Origin: Fuerstiella marisgermanici
Lineage (GTDB): Bacteria; Planctomycetota; Planctomycetia; Planctomycetales; Planctomycetaceae
DNA: 64,000 nucleotides
NCBI RefSeq assembly: GCF_001983935.1
Contig: NZ_CP017641.1
Span: 4,836,001 to 4,900,000 of the forward strand
Direction: 5' to 3'
Made by a program: the position numbers and the translations under genes. Numbering within the stretch: the first letter of the stretch is position 1; each line of letters begins with the position of its first letter. The notes under the pieces are model-generated. The model was given only the letters and a program-made list of their open reading frames with translations, made no database searches and was not told the DNA's origin. Below, piece after piece: positions 872-12,436 of the stretch.

Positions 872-1506
872 AAACTGGCAACCGCGATGATGCGGCCCAT
901 CGTTCGAAGGTGGTATCAGTCCAGGGCGGGAACGCCGAGGCTAGCTGGCTGGTCCGTTCCGACAGCGGCGTCGCGTACGATCGAAACGACTGAAACGTAA
1001 ATCCGGAAGATTCGGAGCGGACGGACACTATGGCGATTGGTTGGCCGTCCTTCAAGCGACGTCCATTTCCCGCAAACCAGGCGCATCTGCAGCAAAATTC
1101 GACCTCGTGGGGTGGCACAGTCAAAGTCCATCGATTTGTTACGGTAGTTCTTAAATCAATCCCTTCAGAATTCCTAAAACGCACTGAGCCGGATTCCGTT
1201 TTGTTGCTTCGGTTCGGCAAAAGCGAGCATAACGTTCCTGACGTGCGTGTACGTCCACTTCGGCAGGAACCGCCGAACAGGTTCGGATTAGGGCAACTGC
1301 GAAGACTGCTCATGGCGATATCTGTAACGGGCACGATAGCCAGTGGTCGCGTTGACCGCTGAAAATCGTCACCACAAGGCACGCTGGCTGTCGGCAAATT
1401 GCCATACAGCACGTTGATGATCAGCAAGCCTGCGTGCCGTCCCGCCTGCTACGATTTCTGCCGTTCTGGTAGAAGTTTTTCTATCCGCACATTTGGAGGA
1501 ATAAGT
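872..1506. other. Intergenic region between divergent genes, no supported gene
   Basis: About 635 bases between the divergently oriented membrane-protein pair and the coiled-coil gene. A minus-strand open frame crosses it (678-1427) and its part at about 880-1140 has a mildly protein-like composition (several Trp, Phe and Cys), but it continues into the neighbouring gene in another frame, has no clear start signal and matches no family I know. The region should contain the promoters of both flanking units; I cannot place them. The purine-rich GGAGGA at 1495-1500 serves the downstream gene. Confidence 0.5.
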
Positions 1507-2859
1507 GTGAGTACCACGACCACGATTCGAAGAAATTCCAAGCAACAAGACAAGAGCTTCCGCAACTTCATGTGGATCTCAATGCTAATGTCACTGTCCG
1601 TCGTATTCTTCGGAATGCAGCTGATGATGGTCGGCCCGTTGAAGGGACGACTCGACGGAATTCACGCTCGCCTGGATTCTGCCGACCAGAACATGCAGCA
1701 ACTGGTCGGCACACAGCACGGCGTTCAGCAGACCAACACGCTACTGAACTCACTGCACGAACAATCCGGCAAGCTGTCACACATGACGGCCGCCATCAGT
1801 GACATGGCCACTTTAAGAAACAAGCTGGAATCGGAAGCAGAATCAGCCACGGCCGCGCTGTCGAGTCTGGATCGTCTCTCAGCCGTACAACAGCGAGTGA
1901 TCGCGTCGCGTCAGCAGACGGATTCAGCCATTGCTCAAATCGGCCAGCTTGAATCTCTTCGCGATGAAATCATCAGCGGCAGCAGCCAAACTGAAGTCGC
2001 AGACAACAGTCTGGACGGCATGATGGCTCTGCAGCAGCGAGTGATCGCCGCATCGAACGGCTATGAACAAGCCAGCAACAGCATCGCGAATCTCGCGGAC
2101 CTCACACAGCGACTGGCAGCCAGCGACAAAGACCTGCAATTGGCCTCAGAAAAGTTCGACAACTTCGTCGGCCTGCAAAACCGCATGATCGCCGCTGCCG
2201 ACAACTTCTCGAAAGCCAACGAAGGGTTTGCGAATGCCGTCAACACATCAGAAAATCTGGCCACATTGGCAGCAAAAATCAACAGCAGTGCCGCCGGCAT
2301 CGACAAGGCAGCCGCCTCAACCGATTCGCTGGTTGCTTTGAAAGCAAAAATCATCAGCGGTGCTGAAGGCACTGAAGATGCAACTGAAACTGTGCGAACA
2401 CTGGTCGCAATGAAAGACTCACTGCACGGCAACAATCTTCAACTGGATCTCGCTCAGAACAACCTGAACCACATGATGGCATTGAACGAAACGCTGGGAC
2501 AGCAGACAGCACGAGTTGCCACAGCGATTCAGAATCTGGAACTGATGGACGACTTCCAGGGTGAAGTTGCCACTCACATCCGCTCACTAACCGGCCTGCG
2601 ACGCACGTTGATGGAGCTGGCCATGATGGAATCTACTGTTGGTCGAGTTGCTCAGGTGATCGCTCCTCTGACGGAAATCAGTAACCTGCGACGCCTCAGC
2701 GAAAACGAAGTTCGGGAAGCTGCCCGAGTCATTCTGGATCGTCGCAACACGCGATTGTCTCAGGCAGATCATTCGAACGAAGAAATGCCTGTTACAGCTG
2801 TCGACTCTCAGGATGCAGACCACGTTCCACTGCCACCTGAAGCTCGCAACGTTCAGTAG
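1507..2859 (+). CDS. Membrane-anchored coiled-coil protein
   Basis: The likely start is the GTG at 1507, six bases after a strong GGAGGA site (1495-1500), giving 450 residues; a longer frame from the ATG at 1399 would ignore that site. The protein has a short basic N-terminus, one hydrophobic segment at about residues 19-40 (FMWISMLMSLSVVFFGMQLM), then about 370 residues of Ala/Gln/Leu/Ser/Asp-rich sequence with heptad-like spacing and recurring 'LQxRVIAAxxxxxxA' and 'L..L...I...A' units, so a long coiled coil outside the membrane. The acidic C-terminus has no obvious domain. It resembles chemoreceptor-like or structural coiled-coil proteins only in composition; the methyl-accepting signalling hairpin is not visible. 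A terminator follows at 2897-2931, so it is probably monocistronic. Confidence 0.8.
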   Translation: MSTTTTIRRNSKQQDKSFRNFMWISMLMSLSVVFFGMQLMMVGPLKGRLDGIHARLDSADQNMQQLVGTQHGVQQTNTLLNSLHEQSGKLSHMTAAISDMATLRNKLESEAESATAALSSLDRLSAVQQRVIASRQQTDSAIAQIGQLESLRDEIISGSSQTEVADNSLDGMMALQQRVIAASNGYEQASNSIANLADLTQRLAASDKDLQLASEKFDNFVGLQNRMIAAADNFSKANEGFANAVNTSENLATLAAKINSSAAGIDKAAASTDSLVALKAKIISGAEGTEDATETVRTLVAMKDSLHGNNLQLDLAQNNLNHMMALNETLGQQTARVATAIQNLELMDDFQGEVATHIRSLTGLRRTLMELAMMESTVGRVAQVIAPLTEISNLRRLSENEVREAARVILDRRNTRLSQADHSNEEMPVTAVDSQDADHVPLPPEARNVQ

Positions 2860-2896
2860 AACTAAGATACTGACACGTCGAATAGGCAAAGCCTCT

Positions 2897-2931
2897 GCGG
2901 TTCGCGTTTCCTCCGACGCGAACCGCTTTTT
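2897..2931 (+). terminator. Rho-independent terminator of the coiled-coil gene
   Basis: A perfect 10-bp stem (GCGGTTCGCG at 2897-2906 with CGCGAACCGC at 2917-2926), a 10-base loop and TTTTT at 2927-2931. It lies 37 bases after the stop codon of the upstream gene and 57 bases before the uracil-DNA glycosylase frame. Confidence 0.85.
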
Positions 2932-2987
2932 GTTGCGCGGGTGGAATCAGCGTCTCCAGACAGAACTCCCTTGCGATTCGCGCCGAA

Positions 2988-3743
2988 GTGACGATGATCC
3001 TGCGAAAGCTTCTGTCCACTTCGCCGTCCGACGCAATGCCCCCAACTTCTGCACATCTTCGAAAATGGAACGCCCTCAACCGGCAGATTGTTCGCTGCGA
3101 ACGTTGCCCTCGGTTGATCGCTCATTGCCGCAAAGTCGCGGAAGAAAAGCGAGCCGCCTACCGCGACGAAGATTACTGGGGCGGACCTGTGGCTAACTTC
3201 GGTGATCCCAATGCCGCTTTGTTGATCGTCGGATTAGCACCGGGAGCTCACGGAGCCAATCGCACGGGGCGACTATTCACGGGTGACCGCAGCGGCGACT
3301 GGTTGTATCGGTCGTTGCATGTCACCGGCTTCGCCAATCAGGCCGAAGCCACTTCACGCGACGACGGACTGGAACTGAAAAACTGCGTGATCACCGGAGC
3401 CTGCCACTGTGCCCCGCCCGACAACAAGCCGACGACCGACGAACTGGCCAACTGTGCCGACTGGCTGACTCAGACGTTCGACCTACTGCCCATTAAAGTC
3501 ATTGTGGCGTTGGGCGGCATTGGCTGGAATTCTGTGTGGAAACACTTCCGCCAGACATCACCCGAGTCACTGCTGCCAACGCGCAAGCCGAAGTTTGGAC
3601 ATCGGGCGGAGGTGCAGTTAACAGAATCCATTGTGCTGCTGGGAAGCTATCACCCCAGCCAGCAAAACACCTTCACCGGCCGATTGACTCGCCGCATGTT
3701 GAATTCCGTCTTTCAACGCGCCGCCAAACTGTTGGCTAAGTAA
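2988..3743 (+). CDS. Uracil-DNA glycosylase, family 5-like (4Fe-4S)
   Basis: Removes uracil or other deaminated bases from DNA as the first step of base excision repair. The signature [19 protein letters not shown] at residues 82-100 matches the active-site motif I know from type-5 (UDGb) iron-sulphur glycosylases, and GSYHPSQQN near residue 225 fits the second conserved motif. The early CERC pair (Cys37, Cys40) with Cys139 or Cys141 and Cys156 could supply the 4Fe-4S ligands. The Asn/Asp of classical family-1 enzymes is absent at the first motif, as expected for this family. Starts at GTG 2988, ATG 2994 and ATG 3036 are all possible; none has a convincing ribosome site. mnmE follows 5 bp after the stop and may be cotranscribed. 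Confidence 0.85.
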
Positions 3744-10593: not shown

Positions 10594-12159
10594 CTACGGC
10601 ACTTTCGCCGTCAGCTTCTCAGCCGCAGAAACCACGCCAGCCTGTCGGTCAGCGTCGGCCTTGTTCAACGCCTGCAGATACGCAGCCGTGGCGGCTTCGA
10701 TGATATCGGTACTGACGCCCTTGCCCAGGTAAGGACGGCCCAGCACGTTGATGGTGACTCGCACTTCACCCAACGCATCCTTGCCTTCCGACACGCTACG
10801 CACCTGAAAATCTTCCAGCCGCGCGGTGATTTCGATAATGCGTTCCAACGCTCGGAACACGGCATCAATCGGCCCGTCGCCTGTGGCTGCATCGCACAGC
10901 ACGGGCTGATCTTCGCACTGCAGTTCCAGTGTCGCCGTGGGAACAGCCGCCGAACCAGCAGACGTGTGAAAGCTAATCAGCTTCCAGCGAACCGGCGCGT
11001 CGGTCATGCGATTATCGATCAGAGCGATGATGTCGGAATCGTAAATTTCCTTCTTCTTGTCGGCCAGAGCGATAAAGTCGTCGAAGGTCTTCTGGAACGT
11101 CTGGTCGTCCAGTTCAAAGCCCAGTTCCTTCACGCGATCTCGAAACGCATGCCGGCCGCTGTGCTTGCCCAACACCAGGTTTTCACCAGCGTAGCCCACG
11201 TCTTCAGCTCGCATGATTTCATACGTGGTCCGTTCCTGCAGCACGCCGTGCTGATGAATGCCGGCTTCGTGAGCGAACGCGTTCCGCCCGACGATCGCCT
11301 TGTTCCGTTGAACCTTCATGCCCGTGATGGATGACACCAACTGGCTGGTCGGAAACAGCCGCTCCGTTTTGATGTTGGTGTGCACGTTGTAAAAGTCGGC
11401 TCGCGTCCGCAGCGCCATCACAACTTCTTCCAGAGCCGCGTTGCCCGCTCGTTCACCCAGTCCGTTTATCGTGCATTCGACCTGACGAGCTCCCGCTTCG
11501 ATCGCGGACAGGCTGTTGGCCACCGCCAGGCCCAGGTCGTTGTGACAGTGCGTGCTGATGATCGCTTTGTCGATATTCGACACGTTGTCCTTCAGATACG
11601 AAATCACTTTGAAGTAGTGATTAGGAGTCGCGTAGCCGACGGTATCTGGAATGTTGACGGTGGTCGCTCCGGCCGCGATCGTTTTTTCCACCACTTCACA
11701 CAGAAAGTCCAGCTCAGTACGAGCCGCGTCTTCCGGAGAGAACTCAACGTCATCACAGAATTCTTTGGCATCCGCGACGGACGAAATCGCTCGTTCAATG
11801 ATCTGTTGTTTATCCATCTTCAACTTGTGTTCACGATGGATCGCGCTGGTCGCCAGAAAAACGTGGATGCGTCGTTTTTCGGCATTCGCCAGAGCCGCTT
11901 TCGCCTTCGCGATGTCATCTTCACGACTGCGAGCCAGCGCGCAGATTGTGGAGCGGTCGCTGAAACGTTCGGCAATCATTTGCACGGCTTCGAAGTCGCC
12001 GGGTGAGGCGATCGGAAACCCGGCTTCGATAACATCGACGTTCAGGTCGACGAGTGCGCGAGCGACTTCCAGCTTCTCTTTGGTGTTCATGCTGCAGCCG
12101 GGCGATTGCTCGCCGTCACGCAGAGTGGTGTCAAAAATGATGATCTGTTCGCTGGACAT
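10594..12159 (-). CDS. leuA: 2-isopropylmalate synthase LeuA
   Basis: Condenses acetyl-CoA with 2-oxoisovalerate, the committed step of leucine synthesis. The start is the ATG at 12159, preceded by CAGGAG at good spacing, giving 521 residues; an upstream in-frame start at 12192 would bypass that site. Motifs include FDTTLRDGEQSPG at residues 8-20, HCHNDLG near residue 200 and the HAFRDRVKELG region after the barrel. The C-terminal third (from about residue 390) is the allosteric leucine-binding domain, so feedback inhibition is expected. Expression is probably controlled by the attenuator at 12282-12436. The gene ends 24 bp before repeat copy 1. Confidence 0.96.
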   Translation of the reverse strand: MSSEQIIIFDTTLRDGEQSPGCSMNTKEKLEVARALVDLNVDVIEAGFPIASPGDFEAVQMIAERFSDRSTICALARSREDDIAKAKAALANAEKRRIHVFLATSAIHREHKLKMDKQQIIERAISSVADAKEFCDDVEFSPEDAARTELDFLCEVVEKTIAAGATTVNIPDTVGYATPNHYFKVISYLKDNVSNIDKAIISTHCHNDLGLAVANSLSAIEAGARQVECTINGLGERAGNAALEEVVMALRTRADFYNVHTNIKTERLFPTSQLVSSITGMKVQRNKAIVGRNAFAHEAGIHQHGVLQERTTYEIMRAEDVGYAGENLVLGKHSGRHAFRDRVKELGFELDDQTFQKTFDDFIALADKKKEIYDSDIIALIDNRMTDAPVRWKLISFHTSAGSAAVPTATLELQCEDQPVLCDAATGDGPIDAVFRALERIIEITARLEDFQVRSVSEGKDALGEVRVTINVLGRPYLGKGVSTDIIEAATAAYLQALNKADADRQAGVVSAAEKLTAKVP

Positions 12160-12281
12160 GAGGAAACTCCTGAGGACGAATTCGCCCGTCAAAAAACTGT
12201 CGTAGTGGGACTCGTCAGACTTCCCGAAGAATGATCGCGATTGAAGGAATCCTGGCGAACTCCACCACAGATGAAGTCCAC

Positions 12282-12309
12282 AAAAAAACCCTGAGGTAAG
12301 ACCTCAGGG
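12282..12309 (-). terminator. Attenuator terminator in the leuA leader
   Basis: On the minus strand, CCCTGAGGT (12309-12301), a 3-base loop and ACCTCAGGG (12297-12289) form a perfect 9-bp stem followed by seven T residues (12288-12282). It lies 122 bases upstream of the leuA start codon and 43 bases after the leader-peptide stop codon. The segment CCTCAGG at 12346-12340 can pair with the 5' arm instead, making a classical antiterminator. Confidence 0.88.
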
Positions 12310-12352
12310 CGATGAAAATTCAGCATGGCTGCAAACGTACCTGAGGCGGGCT

Positions 12353-12400
12353 TCACAATGGAAGTAGAAGGAGGCTCAGTTCTGTTCGCAGGTTGTTCAT
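12353..12400 (-). CDS. leuL: Leu-rich leader peptide of the leuA attenuator
   Basis: A 15-codon frame, MNNLRTELSLLLLPL, with seven leucines including four in a row at residues 10-13, ending in TGA at 12355-12353. It sits between a sigma-70-like promoter and the attenuator hairpin of leuA, the arrangement of leader peptides that sense charged tRNA-Leu by ribosome stalling. There is no Shine-Dalgarno sequence, but the ATG lies at the predicted transcription start, so it may be translated as a leaderless message. The frame is also open upstream to 12574, but the promoter lies inside that extension, so the short form is preferred. The symbol leuL is used by analogy with enteric bacteria, not by homology. 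Confidence 0.75.
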   Translation of the reverse strand: MNNLRTELSLLLLPL

Positions 12401-12407
12401 GAGCGGC

Positions 12408-12436
12408 AATGTACCCGTCGGGATTGTGATGGTCAA
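12408..12436 (-). promoter_or_regulatory. Sigma-70-like promoter of the leuA leader
   Basis: On the minus strand, TTGACC (12436-12431) and TACATT (12413-12408) are separated by exactly 17 bases. They match the -35 consensus at five of six and the -10 consensus at four of six positions. The base seven after the -10 box is 12401 and the ATG of the leader peptide begins at 12400, so transcription would start at or within a base or two of that ATG. Found by eye; no transcription data. Confidence 0.6.

Follow-up and report, generated by a model that had tools for sequence, protein, structure and literature searches.

A leader-peptide attenuator that very probably controls leuA in the planctomycete Fuerstiella marisgermanici, with an isoleucine-type counterpart at the citramalate synthase gene

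Among the closest described counterparts of the element analyzed here is the leu attenuator (leuL) of Escherichia coli and Salmonella, the Rfam family Leu_leader (RF00512). Replacement of CUA with CUG in the Salmonella leu leader lowers sensitivity, as described in PMC1183508, citing Carter et al. (1986). The trp attenuator of Sinorhizobium meliloti (rnTrpL/peTrpL) is a leaderless RNA that begins with the ATG of its leader ORF (PMC7298713). Actinobacteria possess the LEU element, in which a leader peptide with a leucine run lies upstream of leuA and a pseudoknot forms with the leuA Shine-Dalgarno sequence in the absence of any terminator; its mutational data disagree with classical attenuation (PMC1262725). 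As far as the authors of PMC2965389 knew in 2010, leader-peptide systems had been shown in Proteobacteria and Actinobacteria only, and a firmicute case was added in that year; the first-pass annotation of the DNA studied here agrees in placing such control mainly in these two groups. The same annotation considered it poorly described in planctomycetes, and open-licence PMC full text likewise yielded nothing specific on leader-peptide attenuation in this group.

The current study concerns a 64,000-nucleotide stretch (the window) of the F. marisgermanici genome, a single contig of 8.92 Mb, in which an attenuator-like element occupies the minus strand upstream of leuA (Table 1). The first-pass annotation had described a 15-codon leader peptide with seven Leu (four consecutive), an antiterminator segment CCTCAGG located 6 bases past the leader stop, and a perfect 9-bp terminator followed by seven Ts, which together were thought to form a complete classical attenuator. 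The leader is confirmed to the base, the segment and terminator are present as stated, and the leader, terminator, antiterminator, and stop placement are all in place. Absent from that description were segment 1, the promoter-like site, and an Ile-type attenuator elsewhere in the genome. The element contains three mutually exclusive pairings (1:2, 2:3, and 3:4), with the antiterminator (2:3) and the terminator (3:4) competing for identical segment 3 bases, while the 1:2 pairing is predicted from folding to act as an anti-antiterminator (protector) hairpin. The Leu codons of the leader agree with the product pathway of the downstream gene. The genome lacks a leuABCD operon, and leuC is located approximately 2 Mb from leuA.

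Table 1. Features of the putative leuA attenuator in the window and of its cimA counterpart elsewhere in the genome
Feature	Position	Strand	Details
Whole element	12436-12282	-	Promoter-like site to T tract
Promoter-like site	12408-12436	-	TTGACC (12436-12431), 17-nt spacer, TACATT (12413-12408); -10 ends 7 nt 5' of leader ATG
Leader peptide ORF	12353-12400	-	MNNLRTELSLLLLPL then stop; ATG at 12400, TGA at 12355-12353; 15 codons, 7 Leu, 4 consecutive; Leu-rich ORF likewise placed in 131 leuA loci, whose leaders are CTA-enriched
Segment 1 core	12375-12379	-	CTGAG; within leader ORF (Leu codon CTG + AG); pairs with segment 2
Segment 2	12340-12346	-	CCTCAGG; antiterminator 5' strand; 6 nt 3' of leader stop
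Terminator stem	12309-12289	-	CCCTGAGGT-CTT-ACCTCAGGG; perfect 9-bp hairpin, then 7 T
Segment 3	12301-12309	-	CCCTGAGGT; shared by antiterminator (3' strand) and terminator (5' arm)
Segment 4	12289-12297	-	ACCTCAGGG; terminator 3' arm
T tract of intrinsic terminator	12282-12288	-	7 T
Shine-Dalgarno-like site of leuA	12167-12171	-	AGGAG; 7 nt 5' of leuA ATG
leuA, 2-isopropylmalate synthase	10594-12159	-	NF002086, 771 bits (cut-off 532); TIGR00973, 729 bits (cut-off 599)
Ile-type attenuator 5' of cimA	L003, 5' of match 1501-3045; G000:C1 about 4525973-4526280	-	

The 120-nt leader folds to -38.6 kcal/mol, compared with a mean of -25.5 kcal/mol among dinucleotide shuffles (z = -4.0), and none of 200 shuffles was as low. 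We also employed a detector, defined as a short Leu-rich ORF containing LL and located 10-60 nt 5' of a hairpin plus T tract, which serves as a comparison tool rather than as an unbiased scan, because its thresholds were chosen after the first relatives had been inspected. Applied to the whole 64 kb in both orientations, the detector matched this element alone. When the region 5' of leuA was dinucleotide-shuffled 3000 times, 5 of the shuffled sequences contained any candidate and none equaled the score of the real element.

As the first-pass annotation had proposed, leuA upstream regions of relatives were compared, these being gathered by protein match, and the Leu-rich frame, terminator, and antiterminator are kept throughout the family as well as in other families of the class. 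Of the 97 same-family leuA loci compared, 91 yielded both leader and terminator with the detector, and inspection by eye judged 94 of 95 judgeable loci positive with one apparent loss. The six loci of the family that escaped detection comprise one that carries the element (L120), two atypical versions (L025 and L174), two truncated or masked sequences (L127 and L140), and L166, which alone looks degenerate. No complete leader was recognized at L192 and L308. Detector matches were also obtained for 14 of 21 loci in other families of the class and for 26 of 32 planctomycete or planctomycete-like contigs, among them Thalassoglobus, Schlesneria, Stieleria, Roseiconus, Rubripirellula, and Rhodopirellula. 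Elsewhere in the phylum the distribution is patchy: among approximately 33 further loci, the element seems to be present at L210 and L239-L241 and absent from the rest. In these distant members, whose LeuA proteins are 45-58% identical, short Leu-rich leaders followed by hairpins are found upstream of leuA. Outside the planctomycetes, the detector matched only 2 of 48 leuA homologues, most of them from proteobacteria. One of these, from a proteobacterium (L098), was judged spurious. The locus L106, on a metagenome-assembled contig labelled Verrucomicrobia (PLZV01000012.1), has a plausible Leu-rich leader (MNCNLGLSLALLALRFASETMG) and terminator upstream of leuA.

Leaders vary in length and sequence from locus to locus, yet they retain the Leu run. 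Across the 131 loci, 38% of leader residues are Leu and 2% are Ile. The rarest Leu codon, CTA, accounts for 178 of 880 leader Leu codons (20%) versus 17 of 2601 in the leuA coding sequences (0.7%), an odds ratio of 38.5 (p = 4e-91), which agrees with the use of rare CUA codons for control in the leu leader of enterobacteria. The Leu codon within segment 1 is CTG in all 18 clade sequences and the adjoining Leu codons vary, as would be expected if RNA structure were also under selection.

The first-pass annotation had further claimed that segment 2 can pair with the 5' arm of the terminator, and had suggested a search for covarying pairs. Both points were borne out, with compensatory changes found in the terminator and weaker ones in the antiterminator. 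In an alignment of 44 family relatives having their stop codon within segment 2, the terminator retains 95.2% standard pairs with two-sided changes in 6 of 11 pairs (43 cells versus 14.0 in shuffles), and its covariation score exceeds all 500 shuffles, uncorrected for relatedness. For the antiterminator in the same alignment, the corresponding values are 89.8% standard pairs and two-sided changes in 5 of 10 pairs (11 cells versus 4.0), with 1 of 500 shuffles as high, again uncorrected for relatedness. Within the window's own clade, the 3:4 and 2:3 pairs are 96-98% kept and almost invariant, and stem 1:2 is paired in 94% of cells with no covariation; due to this near invariance, covariation within the clade is uninformative for 2:3 and 1:2. 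In a swap test among 107 dissimilar loci, exchanging partners between loci lowered the mean stability of the 2:3, 1:2, and 3:4 duplexes below that of the native combinations, which 0 of 5000 permutations matched for each pairing (relatedness uncorrected). In the 44 relatives, the stop is a TAG inside segment 2 (GGTCTTAGG and variants); since it lies within GGTCTTAGG in most relatives, a terminating ribosome there would sit on segment 2 itself.

These data bear upon the possibility that only the terminator matters, whether constitutive or controlled by a protein, and that the Leu-rich ORF is incidental. The presence of a terminator that is strong on its own would fit such a scenario. We regard it as very improbable, because the Leu-rich frame is retained at 131 loci in spite of widely divergent leader DNA, the leaders are strongly enriched for CTA, segment 2 changes together with segment 3, and, as described below, the leader of the cimA counterpart has Ile in place of Leu.

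Instead, it is highly likely that leuA is controlled by ribosome-mediated transcription attenuation of the classical kind, and we consider the element to be very probably genuine and functional, its mechanism being an ordinary one. RNA polymerase would start at or adjoining the leader ATG, and a ribosome would load onto the leaderless 5' end. When charged Leu-tRNA is ample, the ribosome should pass the Leu codons and reach the stop, where its 3' edge would mask segment 2, leaving the 3:4 terminator to form and transcription to stop at the T tract. When Leu-tRNA is scarce, chiefly the species that decodes the rare CTA, the ribosome should stall in the Leu run and mask segment 1, leaving segment 2 exposed; the 2:3 pairing would then form before segment 4 is made, thus blocking the terminator and permitting transcription of leuA. 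Without translation, 1:2 would form and termination would be the default. Such alternation between masking at the stop and exposure upon stalling had been proposed in the first-pass annotation, and the modeled energies are consistent with it. If the 3' edge of the ribosome reaches no further than leader nt 50, segment 2 is predicted to be free and the 2:3 pairing to yield -15.8 kcal/mol, whereas with the edge at nt 60 or beyond, 2:3 would be prevented, only a structure of -4.8 kcal/mol would be left, and the terminator (-17.0 kcal/mol) would form. In a fold calculation without a ribosome, the 1:2 hairpin is the predicted structure.

The position of the promoter-like site suggests how the leader might be translated. 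In all eight genus members, a TTGAC-N17-TANNNT site (TTGATA in one) ends 6-7 nt upstream of the leader ATG, so it is probable that the leader is translated from a leaderless RNA in the window's genus and in several others, and the predicted transcription start is at or adjoining the ATG. A TTGAC-type site occurs in 108 of the 131 loci (1.0 in shuffles), and a site-to-ATG spacing of 5-8 nt in 20 of the 131 (0.05 in shuffles). The spacings are bimodal: among 120 loci, a group of 25 falls at 6-9 nt, a single locus at 12 nt, and the remainder at 19 nt or more.

A leader of this type could conceivably act mainly upon mRNA decay or translation, which is the proposal made for the LEU element of actinobacteria, whose Leu codons pair with the Shine-Dalgarno sequence of leuA. 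There is precedent in that system, in which a leuA leader peptide without a terminator shows non-classical genetics (PMC1262725), and in g31, a genus with large genomes belonging to another planctomycete family, the T tract is imperfect and both the leader and hairpin are kept. Nevertheless, we find this highly unlikely for the window, given that an intrinsic terminator with 7 Ts is located between leader and gene, 129 nt 5' of leuA, the T tract is retained across the window's family, and the leuA Shine-Dalgarno sequence, 110 nt past the terminator, is not in a paired region. A ligand- or tRNA-binding RNA, such as a T-box or a leucine riboswitch in which the ORF arose by chance, was also considered, as both classes likewise end in a terminator/antiterminator pair. 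At the Rfam gathering score, the 64-kb window has no match to T-boxes, to amino-acid leader families, or to anything else, and the leader at E values up to 10 has no T-box or riboswitch match and matches just two unrelated sRNA families, far under their cut-offs; the leader regions of relatives match no leader family. Furthermore, the region from leader stop to terminator is short and poorly conserved, with no conserved unpaired aptamer core among relatives. We therefore assign virtually no probability to a ligand- or tRNA-binding RNA, and classical attenuation is the reading that we retain.

The same genome encodes a second such element. Citramalate synthase (cimA), identified by TIGR00977 with 683 bits, is preceded by an Ile-rich leader with a GTG start (MTHEIIGIQIISICDIIVSSEV), by the segment CCTGAGG, and by a terminator of sequence GCCCTCAGG-TTT-CCTGAGGGC-TTTTTT. 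Judged from its sequence, this is a sister attenuator whose logic would be that of leuA. The route from pyruvate to isoleucine begins with citramalate synthase, and hence the amino acid of the leader matches the pathway. The detector found the cimA attenuator at 26 of 30 relatives' loci, a few of them weak, and in 18 clear cases the leaders contain 28% Ile and 5% Leu, the inverse of the leuA leaders. No convincing attenuator was found in this genome at ilvB (L242), leuC (L244), a LeuA-like paralogue (L002), two trpE homologues (L276 and L277), or hisG (L278); weak candidates upstream of ilvB were rejected on account of their TTG starts and poor hairpins. Open-licence PMC full text contained no paper that we recognized as describing an attenuator of citramalate synthase, the one text hit being about overproduction of valine in a methanogen. 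Between genera, the leader ORF flips independently between leaderless and leadered arrangements at leuA (L113-L119) and at cimA (L247-L263): some genera are leaderless at cimA and leadered at leuA, the reverse of the window's genus. In a genus relative, an Acido-Lenti-1 RNA (RF01687, 52 bits) is located just 3' of cimA (L247:3108-3153, minus strand).

Attenuation functions only when a ribosome trails the polymerase on nascent RNA. Accordingly, the existence of the attenuator implies coupling of translation to transcription in planctomycetes, a matter under dispute, since the mechanism requires a ribosome close behind RNA polymerase. In Gemmata, segregated transcription and translation were reported in 2014, as cited in PMC6212462; such segregation would be at odds with this type of attenuation, and the attenuator makes the claim testable with a simple reporter. 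Within the family sampled around genome G046, which is presumably Gemmataceae, the leader is accompanied by a matching segment and a terminator at most loci. The genus g31 (L196-L198 and L309-L313) combines its Leu leader with a GC-rich hairpin near the leuA start and a sequence such as GTTTCTGTTTC at the T tract, and some neighboring loci are similarly imperfect. This version may be a weakened or altered attenuator. An outright loss in this Gemmata-like genus was not adopted as an explanation, as leader and hairpin remain and the T tract alone is imperfect.

A leucine attenuator that is nearly universal in the family, together with an isoleucine version at cimA, extends leader-peptide attenuation to another deep lineage, and the leader could be used directly as a leucine sensor in organisms for which genetic tools are few. 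The novelty seems to lie in the taxon, the RNA family, and the Ile version at cimA; the mechanism is known. We are inclined, with some reservation, toward a broader proposal: that this attenuator family, absent from Rfam, goes back to the ancestor of the class, adjusts the first committed steps at leuA (Leu) and citramalate synthase (Ile) independently of each other, has repeatedly switched between leaderless and leadered forms, and by its persistence shows coupled transcription and translation despite claims of a nucleus-like separation.

When compared with known systems, the element shares with the actinobacterial LEU element a leucine-run leader before leuA, but differs in having a terminator and an unpaired Shine-Dalgarno sequence. 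With the S. meliloti trp attenuator it shares the classical arrangement and, as predicted here, a leaderless leader RNA, whereas that system employs Trp codons, controls trpE(G), and belongs to an alphaproteobacterium. Unlike the leuL attenuator, it has no Rfam match, its stop is beside or inside segment 2, it is probably leaderless in this genus, and it is not part of a leuABCD operon; the leuL leader is also longer than the planctomycete leader. Common to both are a Leu-rich leader containing rare CUA control codons upstream of leuA and an alternation between terminator and antiterminator.
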